64,000 bases of DNA from Saccharopolyspora gloriosae (GTDB taxonomy: Bacteria > Actinomycetota > Actinomycetes > Mycobacteriales > Pseudonocardiaceae). Shown here in pieces: positions 6,364 to 49,761 of the stretch (position 1 is the stretch's first letter; every line of letters starts with the position of its first letter). Under the pieces are notes generated by a model. It did not search any database and was not told the DNA's origin. It worked only from the letters and a program-made list of their open reading frames with translations. The position numbers and the translations under genes are program-made. The stretch covers positions 5,147,501-5,211,500 of the forward strand of contig NZ_JACHIV010000001.1 of the NCBI RefSeq assembly GCF_014203325.1. The letters are read 5' to 3'.

Positions 6364-7745
6364 CTCAATCTTGCTTCCAGATCGCGGATCTGCTTGCGTA
6401 TTTCAACGATGTCCTCTCGGTGCTTCGCCAAATCTTGCGGCCGATGCTGCTCCAGTTCGGTCTGGTAATCGCGCGCCTCCTCATTCGCCTTGTAGAGACG
6501 CTGCAAGTTCTCCTCAGCAGCCGCCCGCCAGGACGCCGACGGCGGTTCCGCTGCACGAGGCGGTTCCGACTCGGGGGTGCTCGGCCCGTCACCCGGGTTC
6601 ATCGGGTCGAGCACGTCTTCGTCCATCCAGTCGGGACGGCCCCTGGGGAAGTAGTCCTCGTCCGGGGAGTTGCGTTCGACGGGTTCCGGTTCCGGTTCGG
6701 GTTCGGGGGCCGGGCGGTTCTCGTTCAACCGCGGGCCGTGCTCGTCGTAGCCGTAGGGCGGGTCGAAGTGGCTGCGCTTCTCCACCGGCGGCGCCCCGTC
6801 GAACGGGCTGCCCGAGGGTGCTTCCGGGGCGAGTTTGCCGACTCTGCCCACTTTGCCGCCGAGTCCGGCCGCTTTCGCGCCCGCGCCCGCGCCGCCGCCG
6901 GCGACGGTGGTGCCGATGTTGGTGGCGGCTTTGCCGAGGGCGGCGGCGGGGTCCTTCTTCCACTCGTCGAGGGAGCCGATGGTCTGGCCCCAGCCCTCCT
7001 TCGTGGTGACCATGTGCACGATTCCGGCGCCCGCCGAGAATCCGGCGGAGATCGTGGCCGCCGGGTCCGTCATCAGGTGCAGGGGTTTCGCGGCCATCCC
7101 GAGCACGCCCATGCCCATCTCGCCGACCGCGCCGAGCGCTCCGCCGGTGAAGCTCTTGTACGCCTCGAAGTAGGTGCCGCCGGTCGCGCGGGCCATGTCC
7201 GCGAGACGTTCCAGCACGGACGGGTCGGGGGCGCTCTCGGCGGCCTGCTTCAGGGCGGTGCGGGTGGCGGCGCTCGCCGAGCGGAGTTCGCTGCGCGCCT
7301 GGTCGAGGATCGCCTGCGCTTCGGCCGTCTTGGCCGCGCCGGGGTCTTGGAAGGGCGCGACCCGATCTTCGGGACCGGCCGCTTTCACCTGCGCCGCATG
7401 GGCTTTCTCCGCGCGGGCGCTGTCCTGCTCGCCCTGGCGGTGCAGTTCGATCGCGCGGGCCGCCTTGTCCTGCGCGGAGCGCAGCGCGTTGCCGTGGTCG
7501 GTGAGCGCCGACGCCGCCTTGCCGAACGCGGCGGCGGCGACGTCCCAGCGCTGCTGCTCGTCGCGCACCGTTTTGCGGTAGGCGTCGGCGGCCGGGCCGG
7601 TCCAGGCGTGTTCGGAGTCGATGCGCCGCACCGCGCCGAGCCCGTCGGCGATGCGGCGGAGCGTGTCGGCCTTGTCCCCGGTTCCCGCGACGTCGCCGGG
7701 CACGAGTTCGGTGGGGTCGTCGGTGTCGCCCAGTTGCGCCGCCAT
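6360..7745 (-). CDS. Large type VII secretion substrate-like protein (polymorphic toxin architecture, no toxin domain seen)
   Basis: This 461-residue protein has an N-terminal helical WXG-like region (about 10-125, with HAWTGPAADAYRKTVRDEQ) like that of putative type VII-secreted toxins. A Gly/Ala-rich hydrophobic stretch (about 195-310) follows, then a Pro/Glu-rich linker with EPEPEPEPV, and a C-terminal coiled coil (about 415-461). Where polymorphic toxins carry a catalytic domain, only the acidic linker and coiled coil are present. The ATG at 7745 overlaps the upstream stop as TGATG, which decides the start; a TTG just before it is less likely. It is coupled to the unknown-domain genes downstream. 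Confidence 0.75.
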   Translation of the reverse strand: MAAQLGDTDDPTELVPGDVAGTGDKADTLRRIADGLGAVRRIDSEHAWTGPAADAYRKTVRDEQQRWDVAAAAFGKAASALTDHGNALRSAQDKAARAIELHRQGEQDSARAEKAHAAQVKAAGPEDRVAPFQDPGAAKTAEAQAILDQARSELRSASAATRTALKQAAESAPDPSVLERLADMARATGGTYFEAYKSFTGGALGAVGEMGMGVLGMAAKPLHLMTDPAATISAGFSAGAGIVHMVTTKEGWGQTIGSLDEWKKDPAAALGKAATNIGTTVAGGGAGAGAKAAGLGGKVGRVGKLAPEAPSGSPFDGAPPVEKRSHFDPPYGYDEHGPRLNENRPAPEPEPEPEPVERNSPDEDYFPRGRPDWMDEDVLDPMNPGDGPSTPESEPPRAAEPPSASWRAAAEENLQRLYKANEEARDYQTELEQHRPQDLAKHREDIVEIRKQIRDLEARLR

Positions 7746-38234: not shown

Positions 38235-38852
38235 TCAGATCCACCCCTCGTCCCACGCCTTCTTCGCCGCTTCGACCCGGGTCACCGCGTGCAGTTTGGT
38301 CATCGCGGAAGACAGGTAGTTGCGCACGGTCCCCGGCGCGAGGTGGACGCGTTCCGCGATCACGTTCACGGTGGCGCCGTCCAAGGCCTCTCGCAGCGCT
38401 TCCAACTCCCTGGCGGTCAGCGGGCAGTCGCCTTCGGTCAGCGCGGCGCTGGCGATGCGCGAGTCGACGTAGCGACCGCCCTGGTTGACGGTCCGGATGA
38501 TCCGCGGGAGTTCCTCGCTGGAGGTCGTCTTGGTCACGAACGCCGCCGCTCCCGAGGCGAGCGCGCGGCGCAGCGCGGCCGGCCGGGCGTGCCGGGTCAG
38601 CAGCACGATCTTCACCAGCGGTACTTCCCGCAGGATCTCGGCCGTGGCCGACAACCCGTCCAGCACCGGCATGTCCAGGTCGAGGATGGCGACGTCCGGC
38701 TGGTGCTCGCGCACCGCTTCGATCGACTCGGCCCCCGTGCACGCCTGGGCCACCACTTCCAGGTCGTCCTCGAGCGACAGCAGCAGCGAGAGGGAGTCCA
38801 GCAGCAGGTTCTCGTCGTCGGCGAGCACCACTCGAATGTTCGCCCCGCTCAT
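38235..38852 (-). CDS. LuxR/NarL-type response regulator
   Basis: This 205-residue regulator has a receiver domain with LADDENLLLDSL and the likely phospho-acceptor Asp58 in AILDLDMPVLDG, and a C-terminal LuxR helix-turn-helix (about 142-205: LTARELEALREALDGATVNVIAERVHLAPGTVRNYLSS). It is coupled to the upstream kinase by an ATGA overlap. It is the last gene of a leftward string starting in the RiPP cluster, so it may regulate that cluster. A separate regulon is equally possible. Confidence 0.9.
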   Translation of the reverse strand: MSGANIRVVLADDENLLLDSLSLLLSLEDDLEVVAQACTGAESIEAVREHQPDVAILDLDMPVLDGLSATAEILREVPLVKIVLLTRHARPAALRRALASGAAAFVTKTTSSEELPRIIRTVNQGGRYVDSRIASAALTEGDCPLTARELEALREALDGATVNVIAERVHLAPGTVRNYLSSAMTKLHAVTRVEAAKKAWDEGWI

Positions 38853-40057
38853 CGGCGCCCCTCACCGCAGTTCGCCGTCGCGCCCGCCGGGATCATTCCC
38901 GACAGCTCGTGCTCCCGGCCATTCCTACATCGATGCCGCACAGTTCCTCCCAGTTCCGCGAACCTGTCCTGCAATCCCGCGATCCCGCGATCCGGGCCGG
39001 CACCTTCGACTCCACCTGAAACCCCATCGTTCAGAATGGTGACCCGATAGTCGGGTTGCGCCGAAATGGTGACCGAACAGCTCGAACCGCGCGAATGCCG
39101 GATTATGTTCGTCACGCCCTCGCGTATCAGCAATCCGAACATCGGCGCGATCGACTCCGGTATGTCCTCGGCCGAACCGTCGATGCGCGTGCCGACTCCC
39201 GCAGATTCCAGAATGCGTACCGCGTTGGCCAGTTCCTCCGCGAGGTGAACCGCTCGATAATCGTGCACTACGGCGTGCATCTCATCCAGCGCGGCAGTGG
39301 CGAGAGATTGCAGCCGCCGCGCCCGCTCGACCGCCGCGTCGGGGTCCTTGGCCAGCAGCTTCGGGAGGAGTCCGGCCTCCAGCGCGATCACCTGCAGGTG
39401 CTGGCCCTGGATGTCGTGGAGGTCCCCGGCGAAGCGCAGCCGTTCACGCGCCACCGCGAGATCGGCGGAGACCGCCCGCAGCTGGTCCAGCGTGAGCACC
39501 AGCCTGCTCACCCAGTTCTGGCAGAGCACCGCGGTGGTCAGTCCTGCGCAGATGCCCGCGCCCATCCCGGCCACCGCGATCGACCGCCCGCTGCCGGCGC
39601 CCGCCGCCACGCCCACCAGGACGACCAGGGAGCACCCGGCGGCGATCCGCACCACGGCGGCGCGCCAGGACTGCTCCGATTCGACCCAGGTGATGATGCC
39701 GACGGCGATCGGCAAGGCGCTGATCCACGCCGATTCGGCGACCGGCCCGTCGAACGCCCAGAAGATCAGTGCCGCGACCGTACCGATCACCCGGATGTGC
39801 GCACGTCGCGGATGCTTTCCCGGGAACAAAGAACGCCCCAACAACCACAGCGAACATCCGGTGGACACCACCAGGAGGAGGGTTTTGGCGGTATCTCCCC
39901 CACTCCATTGCCGCTCGCCGAGAAGTTGTTGCAGCGGCAGAAATCCCGCGATGAGCGCCAGCGCTGATTGAGTCAGAGCAGCATAGCCCTCGATCCAGCG
40001 CAAGGTGCTCCGATCCACCGGATGCGGCGGATCGAGCGGGGTCCGAAATTCTGCCAC
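38849..40057 (-). CDS. Sensor histidine kinase, DesK/NarX-like
   Basis: This 402-residue membrane kinase has several hydrophobic helices in the first 170 residues. A HisKA_3 dimerisation region with RLRFAGDLHDIQGQHLQVIALE (phospho-acceptor His in the DLHD box) and an ATPase-like domain with NIIRHSRGSSCSV follow. In the ATPase part the usual glycine-rich G boxes are reduced (LNDGVSGGVEGAG, then GIAGLQDRFAELGG), as is common in this kinase family. It is co-translated with the LuxR-type regulator. It begins 144 bases after the RiPP protease gene in the same direction. Confidence 0.88.
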   Translation of the reverse strand: MAEFRTPLDPPHPVDRSTLRWIEGYAALTQSALALIAGFLPLQQLLGERQWSGGDTAKTLLLVVSTGCSLWLLGRSLFPGKHPRRAHIRVIGTVAALIFWAFDGPVAESAWISALPIAVGIITWVESEQSWRAAVVRIAAGCSLVVLVGVAAGAGSGRSIAVAGMGAGICAGLTTAVLCQNWVSRLVLTLDQLRAVSADLAVARERLRFAGDLHDIQGQHLQVIALEAGLLPKLLAKDPDAAVERARRLQSLATAALDEMHAVVHDYRAVHLAEELANAVRILESAGVGTRIDGSAEDIPESIAPMFGLLIREGVTNIIRHSRGSSCSVTISAQPDYRVTILNDGVSGGVEGAGPDRGIAGLQDRFAELGGTVRHRCRNGREHELSGMIPAGATANCGEGRR

Positions 40058-40201: not shown

Positions 40202-42193
40202 TCAGCCGTCCCCGATCCGCAACCCCGTCTTCTCCGCGAGGAAGACCAGATCCACGCTCGCCGCCCGGACCAGATCCGCCACCGGAGTGCTCTCGTGGCC
40301 CGCTGCGGAGTCGTGCACCAGCATCGTCCGCGTTCCAGGAGAAGCCTCCTGCAACCGCGCGCACATCTTCCGGGCGTGACACGCGTCGACCCGGACGTCA
40401 CCGGCCGAGGCCAGCAGCAGCACGTCCGGGTACCGGCACCCGTCCTCGACCCGGTGGTACGGCGAGTAGGCGGCGAGCCAGCCGAGCTCTTCGGCGACCT
40501 CGGGCGAGCCGTATTCGTCGGTCCACAGCGCAGCGGCACCGAACCGGTCGTAGCGCACCATGTCGCACAGCGGGGACCAGCAGCTGGCCGCGGCGAACAG
40601 GTCCGGGCGTCGAGTGACGGCCGCCGCGACGGTCAGGCCGCCGTTGGAGGTCCCGGTAGCGGCGAGCCGGGACGGCGTGGTCCAGCCTTCTCCGATCAAG
40701 TGCTCGGCCGCGGCCTCGAAGTCGTCGAAGGTGCGCCGCTTGTGCTCACGGCGCCCGTCGTCGTGCCACCGGGCGCCCAGCTCCGCGCCGCCGCGCGCCA
40801 AGACCTTCGCCCAGATCCCCCCGGCCCGCACCCATTCCAACGCGGCGGCGGAATAGGACGGCACCTGGTTCACGCCGAATCCGCCGTATCCGGTCAGCAA
40901 CGCGGGTTTCGGCCCGCCGGAGGTGTCTCCCAGCACGAACATGGGCACCGCGGTCCCGTCCGCAGAGCGCACGTGGACCTGCCGCACCGTCGGTTCCGCG
41001 CGATCCTGCGCCTCCCCCGCAGCCGGGTGGGCCCCGGTCGCGAGGTCGGCGACCCGCACCGACGGCGGGGTGCTGAAGCTCGTCCAGGTGAACGCCAGCA
41101 CGTCAGGCCGCTCCGGCACCGACGCCAGTTCGGTGACGGTCCCGACGCCCGGCAGTGCCACCTCCACCGGTTCGCCCGTCCCGTCCGCGGGGTGCACGCG
41201 CAGTTCGGACCGCGCGCGGTCCTGCGCCAGCACCGCCAAGCGCGGGGCATCTCCCGGCAGGAAGCAGAAGTGCCGCAACGCCTTCCCCGGATGCTCGGGG
41301 ACGACCACGTCCCAGTTCTCCCGCGCCGGGCTCGCCGGGTCCACCCGCACGATCCGACCGAACGGAGCGTCCACAGTGGTCATGATGTACAGGTGGCCGT
41401 CCGCCTCAACCCGGCCCCGGTAGCGCCCGGAAGCCGTCTCGTCGGAGACGAGAACCGCCGCACTCGACGCCACGAGGTCGACCAGCCACATCGATTGCGC
41501 CGAACCAGGTCCGTCGCCGACGTGCACCACGAGCCGGTCGCTGCCCGGCGCGAGTTGCAGGTCGAACACTGCGGTGGCCCACTCGCCCGCATCCAGCAGG
41601 AGGACGTCTTCGTTCGCGGGCGCGCCCACCCGGTGCCGATGCACCGCACGCCGGCAACGCTCGCCGGACTCGGCGGAGACCACGTAGGCGAACTCCTCGC
41701 CGCCGGGCAGCCACACCGCGGATCCCGGGTGCACCCGCTGGACGGGGCCGTCCAGCAGGGCGCCGGTCGCCACGTCGACCACGTCCAGCACCGTCCGCTC
41801 CTCGCCCGGATTCGAGGTGCACACCGCGATCCGGGTGCCCTCGTGGCTCACGTTCCACGCACCGAGCAGCGCGTCCGGCCGCCCGGCGCCCGCACCCGAC
41901 CACACCACCCGCGCGCGGCCGTCCTCGATCACCTTCAGCACCGGGTCGGCGCCGTCGGCCGCGGCGATGAACTTCCGCGCTCCTCGCAGCACCGGGATTC
42001 GCTGCGCGCCGGTGCCGAGCGACGCCTGCAGCCGCCTCCGCACCGCGTCGATCCGATCTCGGCGGGCGTCGGTCCAGCCCGTCAGGTGCCGCCGCTGCTC
42101 GTCCAGCCACCGAGTGGTGCGCTCGTCACCGAGGTCCTCCAGCCACCGGTGCCGGTCTTCGACGTCGACGAGAGCTCCAGGGTCACGCGGCAT
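40202..42193 (-). CDS. Prolyl oligopeptidase family serine protease, candidate leader peptidase of the RiPP cluster
   Basis: This 663-residue cytosolic S9 peptidase has an N-terminal beta-propeller (about 60-400) and a C-terminal alpha/beta-hydrolase domain. The catalytic triad is visible: Ser516 in GTSNGG, Asp599 with Arg601 in AGDVRVD, and His633 in AAGHES. POP-type proteases such as FlaP remove leaders in class III lanthipeptide clusters. Its ATG lies 11 bases inside the decarboxylase gene, so it is the last member of the coupled precursor operon and probably trims the leader. A general peptidase role cannot be excluded. Confidence 0.88.
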   Translation of the reverse strand: MPRDPGALVDVEDRHRWLEDLGDERTTRWLDEQRRHLTGWTDARRDRIDAVRRRLQASLGTGAQRIPVLRGARKFIAAADGADPVLKVIEDGRARVVWSGAGAGRPDALLGAWNVSHEGTRIAVCTSNPGEERTVLDVVDVATGALLDGPVQRVHPGSAVWLPGGEEFAYVVSAESGERCRRAVHRHRVGAPANEDVLLLDAGEWATAVFDLQLAPGSDRLVVHVGDGPGSAQSMWLVDLVASSAAVLVSDETASGRYRGRVEADGHLYIMTTVDAPFGRIVRVDPASPARENWDVVVPEHPGKALRHFCFLPGDAPRLAVLAQDRARSELRVHPADGTGEPVEVALPGVGTVTELASVPERPDVLAFTWTSFSTPPSVRVADLATGAHPAAGEAQDRAEPTVRQVHVRSADGTAVPMFVLGDTSGGPKPALLTGYGGFGVNQVPSYSAAALEWVRAGGIWAKVLARGGAELGARWHDDGRREHKRRTFDDFEAAAEHLIGEGWTTPSRLAATGTSNGGLTVAAAVTRRPDLFAAASCWSPLCDMVRYDRFGAAALWTDEYGSPEVAEELGWLAAYSPYHRVEDGCRYPDVLLLASAGDVRVDACHARKMCARLQEASPGTRTMLVHDSAAGHESTPVADLVRAASVDLVFLAEKTGLRIGDG

Positions 42194-42770
42194 TCGAGCG
42201 CACCGCCTTCGCCACGACGTCGAGCACGGCGGGCAGATCAGGCATCATCCCCGGCTCGGCCGCGCCGTTGAACGCCGCTCGGCCGGTGGTGGTCGGTACC
42301 AACGCGCGACCGTCGCCCGCCAGCAGCGCCAGGTTCCGCTCGGTCGCCGGTGCGCTCAGCAGGCGCCGCCCCAACGCAGGCGCCAGCACTACCGGTGCCT
42401 CGGTGAACGCGACGGTGGCGCTCGCGACGTCGTCGCTGAAGCCGTGCGCGCACTTCGCGAGGAAGTTGTTCGTCGCCGGTGCCGCCAGCACCAGGTCCGC
42501 CCACTCCGCCGCCCACCGGTGGACGACCTCGCCGGTTCCGGCATCCCAACCGGGGCCGATGACGGGGCGCCCGCACGCCGCGGCCAGCGCGGCCGGCCGC
42601 ACCAGCTCCGCCGCGGTCCGGGTCACGCACCCAGTGATGTTCCAGCCGTAGCGGTCCCGCAGGACCATCACCCAGGCCGGGAGCACCGACACCATGATCG
42701 AACCGGTTCCGATGAGCAGCAGGTTTCCGCGGGGGAGTTCGATTTCGGGAAACGTCGCGGTCACGTCCAC
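42183..42770 (-). CDS. Flavoprotein cysteine decarboxylase (HFCD family, LanD/TvaF-like)
   Basis: This 195-residue flavin enzyme is of the homo-oligomeric Cys decarboxylase family. The flavin-binding and catalytic landmarks are present: GTGSIMVSVLPAWV near the N-terminus, His84 in EVVHRWAAEWADLVLAAPA, and PATNNFLAKCAHG, which matches the PASANT motif. It should oxidatively decarboxylate the precursor's C-terminal cysteine to an ene-thiol, which then forms an aminovinyl-cysteine (avionin) ring with a dehydrated Thr/Ser. The precursor does end in Cys. Its start overlaps the unknown gene upstream by 10 bases. Confidence 0.88.
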   Translation of the reverse strand: MDVTATFPEIELPRGNLLLIGTGSIMVSVLPAWVMVLRDRYGWNITGCVTRTAAELVRPAALAAACGRPVIGPGWDAGTGEVVHRWAAEWADLVLAAPATNNFLAKCAHGFSDDVASATVAFTEAPVVLAPALGRRLLSAPATERNLALLAGDGRALVPTTTGRAAFNGAAEPGMMPDLPAVLDVVAKAVRSNAA

Positions 42771-43408
42771 CTCCGCTGTCCGCCGTCGAGCAACGCCGCC
42801 GCCGTGGACAGGTGCGCTGCCATCCGCACCGGTTCGACTCCCCCGCGTACAGCGGCCCGCACGCGATCCAGCAGGTGGTAAGCGACCACCGGCGGGCGCA
42901 CCGGCGTACCTCGGGCCAGCCGGTCCGTCAGCTCGCGCAACGCGGGTGCGGCGACCTTGCTCCCAGCGGTGAAAGCGGTGGACAGCAGCAACGCGTCGGC
43001 GACGAGGCGGTGGGCGACGGCGTCCTGCTGCCAGCGCGGTCCGGGCCGCTGCACCTGCACGACGACGCCTTCAGCCGAACCGAGCACGAAGATCGAGGTG
43101 AAACCCACGGCTGCGGCGGGAACCGGCCCGGTGTCGTCCGCTTCGACCGCGACCGCCGCGTCCGGGACGACTTCGCGCACGGACTCCTCGGCGAGGAATC
43201 GGCGTGCCCGCTCCACGAGTTCGTCCGGCGGCCGATCGAGCCGGGCGTGCTCGCCGGGGCCGCGCGCGATCGACGGAGCCGCGGACACCAGCAGCTCGAC
43301 GACGCCGGGATCGGGCGGATGCTCGGTCGACAACTCCGCCAGCAGCGACCTCGCATGCTCCGGGGGGTGCGGCGCGTCGGTGAAGCGCACCGCGGCGGGC
43401 GACGTCAT
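42761..43408 (-). CDS. RiPP cluster protein of unknown family
   Basis: This 215-residue soluble protein is not recognised with confidence. It starts at ATG 43408, overlapping the HopA1-like gene's stop as ATGA, and overlaps the decarboxylase start by 10 bases. It is therefore an obligate member of the modification set. It has a mixed alpha/beta N-terminal half with FTSIFVLGSAEGVVVQVQRPGPRW and a helical C-terminal half. Class V lanthipeptide and thioamitide clusters contain a third conserved small protein beside the kinase and HopA1-like proteins; by position this could be its equivalent. That is inference. Confidence 0.75.
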   Translation of the reverse strand: MTSPAAVRFTDAPHPPEHARSLLAELSTEHPPDPGVVELLVSAAPSIARGPGEHARLDRPPDELVERARRFLAEESVREVVPDAAVAVEADDTGPVPAAAVGFTSIFVLGSAEGVVVQVQRPGPRWQQDAVAHRLVADALLLSTAFTAGSKVAAPALRELTDRLARGTPVRPPVVAYHLLDRVRAAVRGGVEPVRMAAHLSTAAALLDGGQRRWT

Positions 43409-44301
43409 GCGGGTTCCTCCAGAACGTGCGGGCGTAGCTGTTCGACGAGCCGTTCGGCGCGCACCGGTCGCCCCTCTCGGCCTGCCTCGACCAGGAACGT
43501 GGCGAACAGGTGGGCCACCTCGACCCCGAAGCTGTGCTCCCCGCCGGCGAGCGCGCCGTGGGCGCTCGCGATGCCGGTGCCGCAGCGGAACGCGAAGCCC
43601 GGCACGGGGTCGGCCAGCGCGGGACGCGCCCGCATCAACGCCGCCAGCACATCGGCACGCCGCGCCGCGGCCAGGTAGATCACCACGTTGTCCGGGCGGT
43701 CGCCCGCCCCGGTCGAGGTGCAGAACTTCGCGCGCCACCGGACTTCGCGCAGCGCGTCGAGGGCCTCGAGCACCTCGGCGCACCCGTCTCCGACGTCTGC
43801 CAGGTGCAAGTAGATCCGGTTCTCCAGCCGGGCGGGCGCTCCCCAGGCGCTCACCACTCCGAACCATCCGACCAGCGGGGCCCGCTGCGATCGGGGCAGT
43901 GCGACGGTCAGCGTTCCCGGCTCCGGACCAGGGGTCGCGCTCGATACCGGGACCAGCAGTCGCACCCCGTGCCGTCGAATCTGCCGGTTTCCGCCCTGCG
44001 GCGGTCCGATCGGGTGCCATCCGGTGCTCGGATACGACCCGTCCACCGCGGCGACGAGTCGTCCGAGGACGCGTTCGTCGGCAGTGGTGGTCTCCGGAGC
44101 GTTCCCGGTCAGGTGGACGTCGTGGTAGAGCCAGCTCCGGACCACCGCGACCGAAGTGCCGTCCGCAGCGTTCACGACGGCGCCGTCGGATTCGCGCCGC
44201 AGCCCTGCGGCCCCGGTCCGGGACACGTGAGCGCGGACCTGCTCGGCCCACCGCCGGACCTCGTCGTTCAAGGCCGAGCCGACCTCGTCGGTGCGCATCA
44301 C
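43405..44301 (-). CDS. HopA1-like protein, candidate dehydration lyase or cyclase partner
   Basis: This 298-residue protein resembles the HopA1 effector family. The diagnostic region is RIYLHLADVGDGCAEVLEAL, then WRAKFCTSTGAGDRPDNVVIYLAA, and near the end PGFAFRCGTGIASAHGALA with HSFGVEVAHLFATFLVEAG. HopA1-like proteins (LanX/TvaD types) act with an APH-fold kinase in class V lanthipeptide and thioamitide pathways to turn Ser/Thr into dehydroamino acids and to close rings. The GTG at 44301 lies 8 bases after AAGGAG, giving this start its own strong site downstream of the hairpin. Confidence 0.82.
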   Translation of the reverse strand: MMRTDEVGSALNDEVRRWAEQVRAHVSRTGAAGLRRESDGAVVNAADGTSVAVVRSWLYHDVHLTGNAPETTTADERVLGRLVAAVDGSYPSTGWHPIGPPQGGNRQIRRHGVRLLVPVSSATPGPEPGTLTVALPRSQRAPLVGWFGVVSAWGAPARLENRIYLHLADVGDGCAEVLEALDALREVRWRAKFCTSTGAGDRPDNVVIYLAAARRADVLAALMRARPALADPVPGFAFRCGTGIASAHGALAGGEHSFGVEVAHLFATFLVEAGREGRPVRAERLVEQLRPHVLEEPA

Positions 44302-44346
44302 CGCTGGCGCTCCTTAGTCTCCAGCCCCGGACTCGCGTGGGGAGTG

Positions 44347-44386
44347 CTGTCTCGCACCCGCCCGCGCGGGGGCGGGTGCGAGACAG
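44347..44386 (-). terminator. Attenuator hairpin between RiPP precursor and modification genes
   Basis: CTGTCTCGCACCCGCCC (44347-44363) and GGGCGGGTGCGAGACAG (44370-44386) form a perfect 17-base-pair stem with a 6-base loop. It begins 8 bases after the precursor stop and ends before the HopA1-like gene. Such hairpins let the abundant precursor mRNA end or be stabilised, while a minority of transcripts read through to the enzymes. Confidence 0.8.
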
Positions 44387-44393
44387 CGCGGCA

Positions 44394-44546
44394 TCAGCAG
44401 CCGCCGGCGACCGTGATCACGCAGGGCGCCGAGGTGGGGGTGTCCGCGTTCTCCACCGACACCGAGTGCTCGGTGGCGCTCAGCGCCGCCGCGTCGGTGC
44501 TGACGGCCTCGAAAACGTCGCCGAAGATTGCCTCAGAAGCATTCAT
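44394..44546 (-). CDS. RiPP precursor peptide (class V lanthipeptide/avionin type)
   Basis: The gene encodes a 50-residue peptide from ATG 44546; an in-frame ATG at 44561 would add five residues. The leader begins MNASEAIFGDVFEAV and is acidic and helical. The C-terminal part reads DTPTSAPC, then VITVAGGC, with two Cys, a Ser and three Thr available. The last six residues, TVAGGC, have the same Thr-to-Cys spacing as the TVAFHC ring of thioviridamide. SAPC recalls the SSAPC start of cacaoidin. Predicted: avionin closure between that Thr and the decarboxylated last Cys, plus one possible lanthionine at the SAPC Cys. The exact leader cut is unknown. Confidence 0.85.
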   Translation of the reverse strand: MNASEAIFGDVFEAVSTDAAALSATEHSVSVENADTPTSAPCVITVAGGC

Positions 44547-44708
44547 GACGTACCATCCCATCTGTACGGATCTTATTTGTTTCACTGCACTGCTTCGGTC
44601 GACTTTGCCGAGTCGGCCGAAGCCCTCAGCGGCGTTCTGGACGCGCTGAAGTGAATAGCGTTCCCAAGACGCGCACAAAATGGGCGCATCCGATCAGAAC
44701 GCAAGATC

Positions 44709-45782
44709 TCAAGAAACCTGGAATCGCTGATAACTGCGATAGCGCGTCGGACCGCGCTGCCCGGACAACGTCAGACCCGCGGCGTTCGCGAGTTCGGACA
44801 ATCGCGCGAGACTCCGTTCCCGGCCGGGCACCATGGCAGCCATCCGGAGTTTGGTCCCGTTGTCCGGGAATTCACCCCACCCGTCCAGGGTTATCTCGCA
44901 CACCAGGATCGAACCCGATGACCCGGCCGCGCTAGCGCAATTGCGCAACAAGCGCACCGCAGCGTCGTCGTCCCAGTCGTAGAGAATGCTCGACAGCAAG
45001 TACACGTCGGCCCCTGCCGGCAGCGGGTCGAAGAAGCTCCCGCCGATCGCGCGGGCCCGGTCACCGAGCCCGTGCTCCTCGAACAGCCGCGCCGCGTGCT
45101 CGGCGAACGGAGGCAAGTCGACGACGCTGCCGCTCAAGTGCGGATGCCGCCGCAGCAAGCGGGACAGCAGGCCCCCGTCGCCGCCGCCGACGTCCACCAC
45201 CGAGTCGGCCGCGGCCCAGTCCGGCGACTCCACGATCAGGTCTTCGTCGAAGACCCCGGACCGCACGCGCAGGGACTGCAGATGTTCGGCGAGCTCGGGC
45301 CGCGCGTCCACGTCCGCCCAGTACCCCCGCCCGTAGGCCAGCTCGTACGCGGGCACCCCGCGCAGCACGCTGTCCTTCAGCCAGGTGGCGGCCAGGTCGG
45401 CCCGCCCCGCGCAGCCGTCGGAATCCAGCAGGCTGCGCAGCCGCGCCGGATGCTCCGACCCGAGCAAGGCGCCCTTGCCGGTCACAGCGAGCCGATCCCC
45501 GCTGCGCACCAGCACTCCCAGGTCGACCAGGTTCGCCACCAGCACGTCCACGCGGTAGACGTCCGCATCGAGCCGTCCGGCGAGGTCCAGTGCGGTGTCC
45601 GCGCCTGATTCGACCAGGTCCACGAGCCGCAACGTCGCGGCCGTCCGCAGCACCATCGGAGCGAGCAGGTCGGCCTGGCCGACCACCTCTCCGATCAATT
45701 CCGCTTCCGGAACACCCGCGGATGCAGCATCCACCGCATCGCTTATTCTTCGGCCCGTCGCCTCTTCTACATGCAAATCCAC
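44709..45782 (-). CDS. S-adenosylmethionine-dependent methyltransferase (plant/bacterial O-methyltransferase type)
   Basis: This 357-residue enzyme has an N-terminal winged-helix dimerisation domain (about 30-110) and a Rossmann methyltransferase domain. The SAM-binding motif I is VVDVGGGDGGLLSRLL, followed by GSVVDLP and the late motif LSSILYDWDDD. Methyltransferases of this and related families N- or O-methylate residues of RiPPs, for example the N-terminal amine in lexapeptide. It lies upstream of the precursor in the same direction, with 162 bases between, and divergent from the exporter genes. It starts at GTG 45782 with a weak ribosome site. Confidence 0.85.
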   Translation of the reverse strand: MDLHVEEATGRRISDAVDAASAGVPEAELIGEVVGQADLLAPMVLRTAATLRLVDLVESGADTALDLAGRLDADVYRVDVLVANLVDLGVLVRSGDRLAVTGKGALLGSEHPARLRSLLDSDGCAGRADLAATWLKDSVLRGVPAYELAYGRGYWADVDARPELAEHLQSLRVRSGVFDEDLIVESPDWAAADSVVDVGGGDGGLLSRLLRRHPHLSGSVVDLPPFAEHAARLFEEHGLGDRARAIGGSFFDPLPAGADVYLLSSILYDWDDDAAVRLLRNCASAAGSSGSILVCEITLDGWGEFPDNGTKLRMAAMVPGRERSLARLSELANAAGLTLSGQRGPTRYRSYQRFQVS

Positions 45783-45992
45783 GTGCTAGGCACCCCCAGG
45801 ATTTATTTCCGCCGACCGTCCTGACCCCTCAGAACCGGACGCCGTTGCCGACCAATCCTGACCTCCGAAAAAAACGATCACTAGTAACGGATGTAACGGA
45901 ACAACACTGACATCCGTCATCAACGTCGCGGCGCGAGTGTCATAAGACTCCATTACTTCCGCCTCTGCCCAAAAAACGTGCCGTGCAGCACC
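45783..45992. promoter_or_regulatory. Divergent promoter region of the RiPP cluster with direct repeats
   Basis: The region between the methyltransferase and the exporter genes contains two 9-base direct repeats, GTAACGGAT (45884-45892) and GTAACGGAA (45893-45901). An inverted ATCCGT follows at 45912-45917. It is more A/T-rich than its surroundings. This is the natural place for a cluster regulator, perhaps the LuxR-type one, to act on both arms. Binding is inferred. Confidence 0.45.
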
Positions 45993-47015
45993 ATGTCCTT
46001 CATGACGATGAGCAACGGCACCGCGGCCCGCGGCGCCATTCCGCACCACCGGGAAGACGCGACGGTATCCGTGCGCGATCTGGTCTACCGCTACGGCGAA
46101 TTCGTCGCCGTCGAAGGCGTGAGCTTCTCCATCCGGCGCGGTGAGGTGTTCGCGCTGCTCGGTACCAACGGTGCAGGTAAGACCACGACGCTGGAAGTGC
46201 TCGAAGGGTTCCGCAAACCCACTTCGGGTTCGGTCGAGGTGCTCGGCCACTCGCCGTTCCAGGAACGGTTCGAGGTTCAGGCGCGCACCGGGATCATGCT
46301 CCAGGAATCCGGGCTGATCGACGAGATGACCGTCGTGCAGATGCTGGAGCTGTGGCAACGGCTGAGCCCGCGGGACGATGACCCGAGCCGCCTGTTGGAT
46401 CTCGTGCACCTGGTCGAACGCCGCGACGTCCCCGTCTCCTCGCTGTCCGGCGGGGAGAAGCGCCGGCTCGACTTCGCGATGTCGGTGTGGGGATCGCCGG
46501 AGTTCGTCGTCCTCGACGAACCCACCACCGGCCTGGATCCGCAGTCGCGCGACCAGCTGTGGCAGGTCGTGCAGCGAATCCGGGACGACGGCGCGACGAT
46601 CCTGCTCACGACGCACTACCTGGAGGAGGCCGAAGCCCTGGCGGACCGGGTAGCGATCATGAACTCCGGGCGCGTCGCGGTCGCCGGCACCATGTCGGAG
46701 GTCTTGGCCACCGTGCCCGCGAGGATCAGCGCGGTGTCCACGTCGCTGCCCGGTCACGTGCTCGGCGGTCTCGACCGCGAGGTCCTCGGTGAGCTCACCC
46801 TCACCACCGAAGGAGCCCAGGTCTTCCTGAGCCTGGAAACCCGGCAGTTGCAGCGGGACCTGACCCGGTTGCTCGACTGGGCCAGGCAGCACGACGTCCA
46901 CCTCGACGAGCTCCGGGCGAGCCCGGCGAGCTTGTCGGAAGTGTTCATGGCCGTGCCGCGGAACGACTCCGCGTTCGGCGACACCGCTGTGCGAGCCGAA
47001 GGAGCGCGGAACTGA
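45993..47015 (+). CDS. ABC transporter ATP-binding protein (RiPP export/immunity)
   Basis: This ATPase of about 340 residues is of the drug-export type. Walker A is LLGTNGAGKTTTLE, the signature is SSLSGGEKRRLDF, Walker B is FVVLDEPTTGLDP, and the switch His is in LLTTHYLEEAEALAD. Several start codons lie close together (GTG 45978, ATGs at 45993, 46002 and 46008), none with a strong ribosome site, so the true start is uncertain. It overlaps the permease gene by one base. Its place in the cluster suggests export of, or self-protection from, the RiPP product. Confidence 0.92.
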   Translation: MSFMTMSNGTAARGAIPHHREDATVSVRDLVYRYGEFVAVEGVSFSIRRGEVFALLGTNGAGKTTTLEVLEGFRKPTSGSVEVLGHSPFQERFEVQARTGIMLQESGLIDEMTVVQMLELWQRLSPRDDDPSRLLDLVHLVERRDVPVSSLSGGEKRRLDFAMSVWGSPEFVVLDEPTTGLDPQSRDQLWQVVQRIRDDGATILLTTHYLEEAEALADRVAIMNSGRVAVAGTMSEVLATVPARISAVSTSLPGHVLGGLDREVLGELTLTTEGAQVFLSLETRQLQRDLTRLLDWARQHDVHLDELRASPASLSEVFMAVPRNDSAFGDTAVRAEGARN

Positions 47016-47770
47016 TGCGCGGAATCAAACCGACGATCGGCCTGGCTCTGTCGGAGCTGGCATTGCTGGTTCGACAGCGCACCATGGTGGCGCTGGTGCT
47101 GCTGCTGCCAGCCGTGCTGGTCTTCATGGCGGGCGTGGTGGAGAAGCCGCAGACCCCCGAGGCGTGGGCCGCCATCGCGGCGCGCAACTGCGTGGCGATC
47201 CTGTGCATCACGGTGTACTTCATCTCGACGAGCACGCTGACCGCGCGGCGCCAGACGCTGGCGCTCAAGCGGTTCCGCACCAGCGGCATCCCGGACGCGG
47301 GGCTGCTGATCGGGCTGCTGTCCCCCGCCGTCGTCGCCGGCCTGGTGCAGTCGCTGATCTACTTCGGCGGGATCCTCGCGATGGGGGCCCCGATGCCGCG
47401 TCAACCCGGAGTGCTGGTGGTGGCCCTGGTCAGCGGAATCGTCGTGGCGACCGTGGCGGGCACGGTGACCAGCGCAGTCACCGCGACACCGGAGCGGGCG
47501 CAGTTCACGATGATGCCGCTGCTGGGAGTGGCGCTCGGTGGTGCCGCGCTGATCACGGCGGTCAACGATCCGCTGCTGGGCCGGATCGCACTCGTCGGCC
47601 CCCTTGTGTCCAATGTGGACATGATCTTCAAGGCATGGGGCGGCCCGCAACTCGGCGTGCAACTGCCCGCCGGGACGTGGTTCGCGATCGGCGCCGGTGC
47701 CGTGCTGATCTGGCTGGTGATCTTCTCTTACGCCGCGCGCCGGTTCTTCCGCTGGGACGCCCGGAAATGA
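47015..47770 (+). CDS. ABC-2 type transporter permease
   Basis: This 251-residue membrane protein has about six hydrophobic segments (for example VALVLLLPAVLVFMAG and CVAILCITVYFISTSTL) and the cytoplasmic motif ARRQTLALKRFRTSGIPDAGLL, typical of ABC-2 exporters. It pairs with the ATPase just upstream (TGATG overlap) and is coupled to the kinase-like gene downstream (ATGA overlap). Confidence 0.9.
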   Translation: MRGIKPTIGLALSELALLVRQRTMVALVLLLPAVLVFMAGVVEKPQTPEAWAAIAARNCVAILCITVYFISTSTLTARRQTLALKRFRTSGIPDAGLLIGLLSPAVVAGLVQSLIYFGGILAMGAPMPRQPGVLVVALVSGIVVATVAGTVTSAVTATPERAQFTMMPLLGVALGGAALITAVNDPLLGRIALVGPLVSNVDMIFKAWGGPQLGVQLPAGTWFAIGAGAVLIWLVIFSYAARRFFRWDARK

Positions 47771-48741
47771 CCGGCCACGCGCCCGCCCACGACTCGTGCC
47801 CGTGGGACACGGCTTGGGACACGGCCGAGCGCATCCCCCACCACGACCGGGTCCGCCTCACCGAACGCGACGGGTCGCGCTACGTGCTCAAGGTCGCCCG
47901 CCCGTCGACACCGCTGGAGCACGAGGCGACCGTGGCCCGGTGCGCCGCCGATGTCCGCGTCGACAACCGGCCGATCGCGGACCGGTCGTTGCGCGCCGAC
48001 TCGGCGATGCTCGTCACCGCCTGCGATCCCACCGCCGAAAGCCTGCACGACCGGCTGCTGCGGCGGTGGGAGGCGCCGCCGCTGACCGGTGTGGGGCGAG
48101 CGCTCGCCGCGATGCACGGCCACCGGGCGCCGGTCCGGCTCCCCGATGCTCGGCCGGAACGGCCGCGGTTCTTCCCGCTCACCCCCGAGCAGCACGCCGC
48201 GATGCCGATCGGCACGGTCCAGGTGCTCCGCGTCCTCGACGAGCACCGCGATGCGCGAGACCTGCTGGAAACCGCCGCCGCTCGTCCGCCGAAGGCCCGG
48301 ACTCTGGTCCACGGGGACTGCAAGCCGGACAACATCCGGCTGCGGCGGGACGGATCGGTTCTGTTCATCGACTGGGAGCTCGGCGGGGCCGGAGATCCGA
48401 TCGAGGACCTGGCCGGGGCGGTGGGGGCCCTGATCGCGGTCTCGGTGCAGGACCGGCTGGCCACCGCGGGCCCGACCGCCGCGGACATCGGCCGCGCTCT
48501 GTCCGAGGGGATGAACCGGGCGTGGGAGTGCGTCGCGACGATGCTCGCGGCGTACGCCGACGCCGGGGCCGAGGTCGCGGACCTCGACGACCTCGTGCTG
48601 CTCACCGCCGTGAAGGTGCTGTGCCGCGCCCAAGTGCAGGCCGCACTGATGGGCAAAGTCGGTGCGACCGCGCACGTGCTGCTGCAGGCGGCGCTCGCCA
48701 TCACTCGCAACCGCGACCGCGTGGCCGGACTGCTGCGTTGA
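47767..48741 (+). CDS. APH-fold kinase of the RiPP cluster (LanK/TvaC-like), catalytic motifs intact
   Basis: This 324-residue protein has the aminoglycoside-phosphotransferase fold. Lys42 in YVLKVA, Glu53, the catalytic loop HGDCKPDN (182-189) and the metal-binding Asp202 in LFIDWELGGAGDP are all present, so it should be an active kinase. In class V lanthipeptide and thioamitide pathways an APH-like protein phosphorylates Ser/Thr of the precursor, and elimination by a partner gives dehydroamino acids. Its ATG overlaps the permease stop as ATGA. An antibiotic-resistance role is less likely given the cluster. Confidence 0.85.
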   Translation: MTGHAPAHDSCPWDTAWDTAERIPHHDRVRLTERDGSRYVLKVARPSTPLEHEATVARCAADVRVDNRPIADRSLRADSAMLVTACDPTAESLHDRLLRRWEAPPLTGVGRALAAMHGHRAPVRLPDARPERPRFFPLTPEQHAAMPIGTVQVLRVLDEHRDARDLLETAAARPPKARTLVHGDCKPDNIRLRRDGSVLFIDWELGGAGDPIEDLAGAVGALIAVSVQDRLATAGPTAADIGRALSEGMNRAWECVATMLAAYADAGAEVADLDDLVLLTAVKVLCRAQVQAALMGKVGATAHVLLQAALAITRNRDRVAGLLR

Positions 48742-48858
48742 AGCACGGGCGTTAAGCACGGGTGTTCCCGGCTCGGCGCGCGACAGGACTTGGAGAACTC
48801 GACGGCCGGGCGGCCGGGCTTCCTCGCCGCCCGGCCGCCCTCGCCGGAGGTGGCCGAC

Positions 48859-49761
48859 GTGCCGAAAGACCGACCGCTGCGGGACGAACCGGTGCGCCAA
48901 TGGCGGACCGGCCTGCAGCACACCACCGTGCACCACGCCGAGGACGGGTGGTTCACCTGGTCGTTGCGCGCGGGCAGTGCCGCACCGCCCCGGCCCGCGC
49001 CGCGACTCTCATCGCTGGACTCGTGGCGAGCGCTGCCGGGCCTCGCGGTGGCGCGGCAGGACGGTAGCGCGTTGTCCTACCGTGCTCCCGGCTCCACCTC
49101 GCTGGCCCAGGCGTTCCTGGACGGCACCGGAGACGGGGTCCTCGACGCGGTGGAACGAGCGGGGGCACTGCTGCGCACGGCCCACGACGCTCCGGTCCCT
49201 GCGGCCGCGCGCGCCTGGCCTTCGCCCGCCGTGATCCGCCTGCTGCACGGAACTTCGCCGCAGTTCGCGCCGACGCGCTTGCACGCGCGGATGCAGGCGG
49301 TGCTCGGGCGGCGCCGGTGCGAGCGGCTGCGCTCCTGGGCCGCGGAACCGCCCTCGGACGGGAGCGACGAAGTTCTGCTGCACGGCAGCGCCACCCCGCG
49401 AGCGGTGGTGGTCAGCGGCGACTCCCGCTGCACGCTGCGCATCGGGGCCGACTGCGTGACGGGCGACCGCAGCTGGGACCTGGAGTGGTTCCTGGCGTCG
49501 TTGTTCGAACTCTGCGCCGGTACCGAACCGAGCATCGGCCTGCACACCGGCACGTCGTACCGGCAGGCCCACGAGGCGCTCATCACCGGATACGGCAGGG
49601 AGTTGCCCGCCACGGCCGGACCGGTGGCCGTGCTCGGCGTGCTCGGCCACGTGCACGACTTCGCCGCCTACGTCGGGTGGAGCGACGAGCTCGACGACTA
49701 CCTGCGGGCCTCGGCGCAGCTGATCGATGAGGCGGGAGCGCAGATCGTCTCCCCCGCGTGA
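48859..49761 (+). CDS. Kinase-like protein with degenerate APH catalytic motif
   Basis: This protein of about 300 residues starts at GTG 48859, placed 8 bases after GGAGG; an earlier TTG is possible. The overall layout mirrors the kinase upstream, but the catalytic loop reads HGSATPRA (from 175) in place of HGDxxxxN. The metal-binding region reads IGADCVTGDRSWDLEWF, without the normal IDWE. The late GDxxxDL element is kept. It looks like a pseudokinase that may bind precursor or activate the true kinase. Homology to the APH fold is inferred from motif spacing. Confidence 0.68.
   Translation: MPKDRPLRDEPVRQWRTGLQHTTVHHAEDGWFTWSLRAGSAAPPRPAPRLSSLDSWRALPGLAVARQDGSALSYRAPGSTSLAQAFLDGTGDGVLDAVERAGALLRTAHDAPVPAAARAWPSPAVIRLLHGTSPQFAPTRLHARMQAVLGRRRCERLRSWAAEPPSDGSDEVLLHGSATPRAVVVSGDSRCTLRIGADCVTGDRSWDLEWFLASLFELCAGTEPSIGLHTGTSYRQAHEALITGYGRELPATAGPVAVLGVLGHVHDFAAYVGWSDELDDYLRASAQLIDEAGAQIVSPA

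Follow-up and report, generated by a model that had tools for sequence, protein, structure and literature searches.

Lipolanthine and avionin clusters pair a LanKC synthetase with a LanD-type decarboxylase, and the labionin-type motif of such peptides is S-x2-S-x3-C. Class Va lanthipeptides, such as the rosins, lexapeptide, and cacaoidin, commonly have an LxmA-type leader, a trait that does not strictly define them. In the rosins, aminovinyl-methyl-cysteine (AviMeCys) lies between Thr20 and Cys25, the cyclase is RosX (a LanX), which requires Glu220, His269, and Asp272, and lanthionine (Lan) closure within the motif (Dhx)2-X-X-Cys, Dhx being a dehydroamino acid, is spontaneous (PMC12291118). 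A T-X4-C rule is given in PMC11162475, whereas PMC9415263 presents avionin as an AviCys-labionin linkage and describes the kin (kintamdin) cluster as having two metallopeptidases and a reductase, KinJ. Here, we analyzed a stretch of 64,000 nucleotides of Saccharopolyspora gloriosae (contig NZ_JACHIV010000001.1, positions 5,147,501 to 5,211,500), hereafter the window, which carries a cluster for a ribosomally synthesized and post-translationally modified peptide (RiPP). Judging from sequence comparisons, it probably represents a separate lineage that would make a very short AviMeCys peptide by the combined chemistry of LanK, LanY, LanD, and LanX, with a 215-residue protein (U215) as a leftover beside LanX. 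An earlier note on this DNA had described the cluster, whose existence was confirmed, and had offered an interpretation that was partly supported.

Based on synteny with related clusters and on comparison with sister species, the cluster extends from 38235 to ca. 50040 (Table 1), wider than the 40202 to 49761 first proposed, since a histidine kinase (HK), a response regulator (RR), and a small membrane protein also belong to it. The minus strand encodes, in order, an O-methyltransferase, the precursor, LanY, U215, LanD, and an S9 protease, with HK and RR coming next, while the divergent plus strand encodes two exporter genes, LanK, and LanX, with the small membrane protein next, again on the minus strand. 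The genes named earlier were all present in the arrangement described. Pfam and NCBIfam scans, which covered the ten cluster proteins, confirmed the HopA1-like protein (PF17914, 24.6 bits), the cysteine decarboxylase, the prolyl oligopeptidase (POP)-type protease (Peptidase_S9, E 3.4e-39), the methyltransferase, the exporter, and the APH-fold kinase (PF01636, E 2.1e-17). The kinase also matched NCBIfam LxmK (E 9e-12), with a score of 44.7 bits that falls far short of the curated cut-off, 315. In LanY, the residues matching CaoY Arg187, Lys219, Arg229, Tyr236, and His57, those named in PMC9486802, were present in an alignment read by eye.

Table 1. Features of the RiPP cluster in the window (positions are those of the window)
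Feature	Position	Strand	Basis and remarks
Response regulator	38235..38852	-	44-46% identity to the regulator beside the precursor in 4/4 relatives
Histidine kinase	38849..40057	-	34-40% identity over 167-209 amino acids in 4/4 relatives
S9 prolyl-oligopeptidase-type protease, probable leader peptidase	40202..42193	-	Pfam S9 and S9_N
LanD, flavin-dependent Cys decarboxylase	42183..42770	-	PF02441 (Flavoprotein), E 6.6e-15
U215, 215-residue protein	42761..43408	-	Synteny and weak similarity to the U of relatives
LanY, HopA1-type phospho-Ser/Thr lyase	43405..44301	-	PF17914
Strong hairpin between precursor and lanY	44346..44387	-	21-nucleotide arms, 95% complementary
Precursor peptide, 50 amino acids	44394..44546	-	Leader with IFGD motif, core ...DTPTSAPCVITVAGGC
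PF00891-type O-methyltransferase	44709..45782	-	Methyltransf_2, E 7.4e-33
ATP-binding cassette (ABC) exporter ATPase	45978..47015	+	ABC_tran; 52-53% identity in L047 and L083; start codon not settled
ABC exporter permease	47015..47770	+	ABC2_membrane_3; 33-35% identity in L047, L048, and L083
LanK, Ser/Thr kinase of the dehydratase pair	47767..48741	+	PF01636, LxmK; HGD...IDWE present
LanX, kinase-fold Avi(Me)Cys cyclase	48790..49761	+	Alignment with LanX of class Va; start codon not settled
Small membrane protein, 74 amino acids	49816..50040	-	36% identity over 55 amino acids (E 1.3e-5) to a protein beside the L047 exporter

Four genomes of another family, belonging to two genera (loci L047, L048, L083, and L084), carry this cluster too, and the precursor is conserved in them; stretches of 18 to 20 kb of these genomes were compared with the 64 kb of the window. 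These relatives have the common order K-Y-U-D-S9, U being a protein of 287 to 319 amino acids encoded between LanY and LanD, and the precursor stands beside RR. LanD (52 to 55% identity to the window), LanY (35 to 39%), LanK (34 to 38%), the S9 protease (33 to 35% in 4/4), HK, and RR are all shared. When 394 genomes of the class were searched with LanY, eight matched, namely, the window's own genome, G718 (E 2.4e-33), G488 (E 1.3e-31), and five weaker ones. Using as the query a LanY alignment that contains G718 and G488 themselves, 50 of 341 genomes of the family of G718 matched, four of them strongly (G718, G488, G888, and G884); G888 and G884 reached E 4e-139 and 2e-135, and the next best was 4.8e-28. 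The 390 genomes of the window's own family yielded five further weak LanY matches (best E 9.4e-12), and in a third family (394 genomes) a single match reached E 1e-20 (2.8e-23, L108 in G501). The latter was rejected as a member: it has LanX and LanK matches, but none of the remaining clade genes matched at E 1e-3, and neither of its two precursor candidates has an FGD leader. L010 (G375), a LanK-LanY pair without LanD or LanX in its stretch, was likewise set aside, and we read the open reading frame (ORF) of L011 (G381) as an argininosuccinate-lyase-like chance match. Scans of a genome-contig collection with LanY only (125 pattern matches) and with LanX (13 class Va-type loci) retrieved no further clade member. 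In the window's own family, L007 and L009 (G193 and G190) are class Va clusters with four-Cys precursors.

The window precursor shares 34 to 47% identity and 15 invariant columns with those of all four relatives, and this conservation in four other genomes makes it more than a chance ORF, as the earlier note had anticipated. With the window peptide as a tblastn query, L048 and L084 matched (E ca. 3e-6), while L047 and L083 were missed at E 0.01 and were recovered using the L048 peptide. A leader motif, [ILV]FGD, is present in 5/5 clade members and in L022, a plasmid locus considered below, and in 0/24 class Va candidates within the peptide proper (in L034, the string occurs only upstream of the likely start, where the peptide had been extended too far). 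The profile of the LxmA-type leader (NF038146) was compared with 11 distinct precursors. None of the precursors of the window, the four relatives, and L022 matched it at E 10, and 5/5 of the class Va precursors tested did (L007, L009, L024, and L026 above the cut-off and L025 below).

The window and its four relatives formed a single clade in the trees of LanD (support 99/96), LanY (99/98), and LanK (98/96), in agreement with the separate subfamily that had been suggested. Class Va rows split from these five with support of 100/99 for LanD, 94/96 for LanY (narrowly under the star threshold), and 98/96 for LanK. One record, L035, is the same as L007 (Crossiella sp. SN42) and was excluded from trees and counts, and L029, where D, X, and the reductase were all that was found, entered the LanD tree and is absent from those of LanK and LanY. 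A placement of the window, separated from its relatives, among 17 class Va rows was rejected by the approximately unbiased test (p 3.4e-5 for LanY and 1.9e-60 for LanK), which in part only restates the tie of the window to its relatives. Like class Va (rosins, lexapeptide, and cacaoidin), the window has LanK, LanY, LanD, and LanX in one cluster, a LanX with the Glu, His, and Asp of RosX, no LanC in the cluster, and the ring spacings of rosin A1. Unlike class Va, it has no LxmA-type leader, its LanK, LanY, and LanD fall outside the class Va branch, and it additionally has U215 and a PF00891 methyltransferase. The luciferase-like monooxygenase (LLM)/F420 reductase, LanJ, matched in 18/18 class Va loci and in 0/5 clade members within the stretches compared. 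These comparisons seem best explained by a sister lineage of the sampled class Va lanthipeptides that falls outside them. The partial texts of PMC9486802, PMC12291118, PMC9415263, PMC11162475, and PMC10885120 contain no description of it, and the 67 precursor clusters of PMC11162475 or the "type-C" group of PMC9486802 may include it.

The gene that the earlier note called a degenerate paralogue of the kinase was indeed there, with the kinase Asp of its HGD motif replaced by Ser, but its identity had been missed: it is a LanX cyclase with its three catalytic residues intact. No Pfam or NCBIfam family matched it, and it aligned at 28 to 34% identity with LanX proteins from six class Va clusters. 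The residues matching RosX Glu220, His269, and Asp272 are kept in 19/19 aligned LanX proteins, the window included. In L032, a locus from the ros strain Microbispora rosea ATCC 12950, they bear exactly those numbers, the numbering being that of the single start codon that fits. Neither LanX nor U nor LanK had a meaningful match when the PDB was searched by sequence.

Proper LanX proteins were not found in the genomes of the four relatives (best E 0.07 to 0.55, with 150 of 156 to 223 first-look candidates scored). A comparison of the U profile with the LanX profile aligned 221 columns with a probability of 93% and a score of 55.8, above the maximum of 21.8 reached by 200 column shuffles. None of the seven further profiles compared (K, Y, D, S9, LLM, M16, and O-methyltransferase) gave an E below 0.035. 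On these results, U is most likely a strongly diverged LanX, the only LanX-like protein of the relatives. The LanX His is kept in 4/4 U proteins, whereas Asp is replaced by Arg and Glu by Leu (the Glu column may be misaligned). U215 probably belongs with U, as indicated by its place and by weak similarity (29 to 32% identity; hhalign score of 27.4 against a maximum of 23.4 in 200 shuffles). The gene that had been reported as encoding an unknown protein is present, and on searching it proved to have a counterpart by place in the diverged LanX of the relatives. U215 had for a time been taken as a lineage orphan, a view abandoned when these counterparts surfaced in the class-wide LanY search, and profile comparison was negative for a fragment of HopA1, kinase, decarboxylase, protease, or methyltransferase. 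The search of the 390 family genomes with U215 gave matches in 64 besides its own at E 0.1, the best at E 2.6e-4 over 60 residues, which we read as composition noise; there was no plasmid match and no profile match above 2% probability.

Several roles could be envisaged for this protein. U could be a second, independent kinase-fold Avi(Me)Cys cyclase lacking the RosX-type Asp (and perhaps Glu), with the window caught in the middle of an exchange in which a canonical LanX arrived and the native U215 is decaying or being repurposed, in which case the lineage would stand apart as a class V branch marked by a leader signal of its own, [ILV]FGD. We regard this as a tentative proposal, with the odds rather against it. 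It is unlikely, although conceivable, that U215 (or U) is itself the active cyclase or a guard of the enethiol, with LanX assisting and two pseudokinases acting together in the window. Charged residues are invariant in 5/5 U proteins (among them Arg125, Arg134, Lys151, Asp181, and Arg184 of the window), and the four relatives have U and no LanX, but U215 is shorter, lacks the His kept in the relatives and much of their N-terminal part, and is, at the identity given above, less conserved than any other modification enzyme they share. We retain LanX as the probable cyclase of the window and U215 as a shortened second copy or scaffold, which would have been left over once the canonical LanX took over, the cyclase place in the relatives being taken by U.

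The core contains T38-S39-A-P-C42 and T45-V-A-G-G-C50. The (Dhx)2-X-X-Cys rule fits TSAPC in the window and T[ST]VPC in 4/4 relatives, and the spacings T-x3-C and T-x4-C are the same as those of Ser6-Cys10 and Thr20-Cys25 in rosin A1. On this pattern, LanK would phosphorylate and LanY eliminate the core Ser and Thr residues, after which a methyllanthionine ring between Thr38 and Cys42 would close largely unaided within its (Dhx)2-X-X-Cys motif. LanD would oxidatively decarboxylate Cys50, and LanX would couple the resulting enethiol with dehydrobutyrine 45 (Dhb45) into a six-residue AviMeCys ring. The leader would be removed by the POP protease, perhaps at the invariant Pro37 (a guess drawn from its invariance), and the product secreted by the ABC exporter, with expression under HK/RR control. 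The class V-like logic and the short product proposed earlier are thus supported, but "avionin" was the wrong word, since the residue expected here is plain AviMeCys (T-x4-C).

A kintamdin-like bis-thioether, in which Cys42 and the Cys50 enethiol would join Dhb45 in one MAbi-type crosslink rather than in two rings, is an unlikely product. Kintamdin too uses four proteins (KinC, D, H, and I), and the beta-bithionin motif, S-S/T-X-X-C-Xn-T-X4-C, comes close to describing the core T-S-A-P-C-V-I-T-x4-C (kintamdin proteins and motif from PMC9415263). However, the first residue of the motif is Thr instead of Ser, so that the strict motif fails although the rest fits, and n is 2 instead of 10, which would result in a very small bicycle from a core shorter than that of kintamdin. 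Besides, no F420 reductase or M16 peptidase was found in the window, whereas kin has its reductase and two metallopeptidases; PMC9415263 names KinE/F simply as metallopeptidases, which may belong to a family other than M16. Finally, a thioamitide or an avionin/lipolanthine cluster is very improbable, for although the kinase, HopA1, and decarboxylase set is common to them (PMC9486802 and PMC9415263) and the genomes of the four relatives hold 3 to 7 YcaO each, all on contigs other than that of the cluster, YcaO had 0 matches in the whole S. gloriosae genome, K and Y are standalone proteins among the ten scanned, the window has no LANC_like domain (two genome matches, at 2.01 Mb and a weak one at 5.54 Mb, lie outside its 5.148 to 5.212 Mb), and the core lacks a labionin-type S-x2-S-x3-C. 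As for the earlier statement that LanB, LanC, LanM, LanKC, and YcaO/TfuA were missing, the parts checked, LanC in the window and YcaO in the genome, held.

Several observations weigh against the two-ring AviMeCys peptide of a separate lineage. Long branches were flagged in all three trees, including those of the window's LanK and LanD, which makes the wider position of the clade (near L022 or near thioamitides) unsure. LanY exceeds the PF17914 cut-off of 22.7 by a margin of 1.9 bits. The relatives have Ser five residues before the last Cys, with Thr at -3 and -7, so that their ring may be of another size. The kinship of U215 and U is weak by sequence (blastp E 0.025 and phmmer E 0.004), the U profile of the relatives does not list U215 among the window ORFs, and U215 against the LanX profile alone does not stand above shuffles (18/200 reach its score). 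AlphaFold predictions for U215 and U were of too low a confidence to be used, with mean predicted local distance difference test (pLDDT) values of 39 and 43.

The cluster lies between coaD and rsmD. In 5/5 sister species of the genus, the flanks of the segment from 38.2 to 50.2 kb, which includes the RR gene, are directly adjacent, 58 to 190 bases apart. The GC content of the insert (70.4%) equals that of its surroundings (70.8%). No mobile gene was noticed at the site among the ORFs listed, of which no profile scan for mobile genes was made; there is no tRNA in the window, and no direct repeat stood out at the cluster junctions. At the empty coaD-rsmD site of the nearest sister species (L102, G005, ca. 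6560 to 6600), a short remnant was seen by eye that resembles the 3' end of the RR gene. Such a remnant suggests that the cluster was once there and was later lost; hence, in our reading, it was gained before the split from the nearest species. An older cluster lost repeatedly is an alternative history that would also be compatible with these sites.

The S9 protease also has counterparts in 4/18 class Va loci, with identities of 32 to 39%. Its Ser516, Asp599, and His633, which we take to be the catalytic triad, sit in the expected motifs. The O-methyltransferase, a putative tailoring enzyme, was not found in the stretches of the four relatives, and the small membrane protein, whose L047 counterpart recurs in L048 and L083, perhaps has an immunity or transport role. 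A LuxR-type regulator lies directly before LanK in L047, L048, L083, and L084, and no counterpart was noticed there in the window. The segment from 44300 to 44396, with the hairpin between the precursor and lanY, has a folding energy of -59.3 kcal/mol (z -4.9), suggestive of a possible attenuator or mRNA stabilizer.

Short class Va clusters containing a POP protease (L024, L031, L025, and L034) resemble the window in having an S9 protease beside LanX, and L025 also has a similar HK/RR and exporter. They differ in their LxmA-type leaders (a profile match in L024 and below the cut-off in L025), in the presence of LanJ, and in having no U. The cores of L031, L024, and L034 are very short (L034, STPWCVLSIVVTVAGGC), and the last six residues of L034, TVAGGC, are those of the window, although the leaders are quite different. 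The loci L008, L049, and L085, which we call thioamitide-like from their precursors and trees, have in common with the window the kinase, HopA1, decarboxylase, and pseudokinase, but their leader is another one, and Gln occupies the place of RosX Asp272 in the two aligned (L049 and L085). L022, on a plasmid of Streptomyces sp. NBC_00212 (NZ_CP108116.1, 99871 to 118392), may be an outlier of the window lineage. It has LanK, LanY, and LanD, an LFGD leader, a LanK that groups with the window clade (99/96), and an O-methyltransferase remnant beside the kinase (35% identity over 97 amino acids to that of the window). However, its core contains just one Cys, its stretch yielded no LanX, U, or S9, and its LanY and LanD lack a firm grouping with the clade. 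The methyltransferase gene of L022 stands beside an IS3 element (an insertion sequence), by which it seems to be cut.

The cluster of S. gloriosae is thus a small, complete, and apparently horizontally acquired gene set that would produce a very short peptide with AviMeCys. It belongs to a lineage that falls outside the sampled enzymes of class Va, and it provides a leader motif and marker proteins for genome mining. With U only in the relatives, and U215 together with LanX in the window, this lineage would lend itself to a natural experiment on the residues required by a kinase-fold AviCys cyclase.

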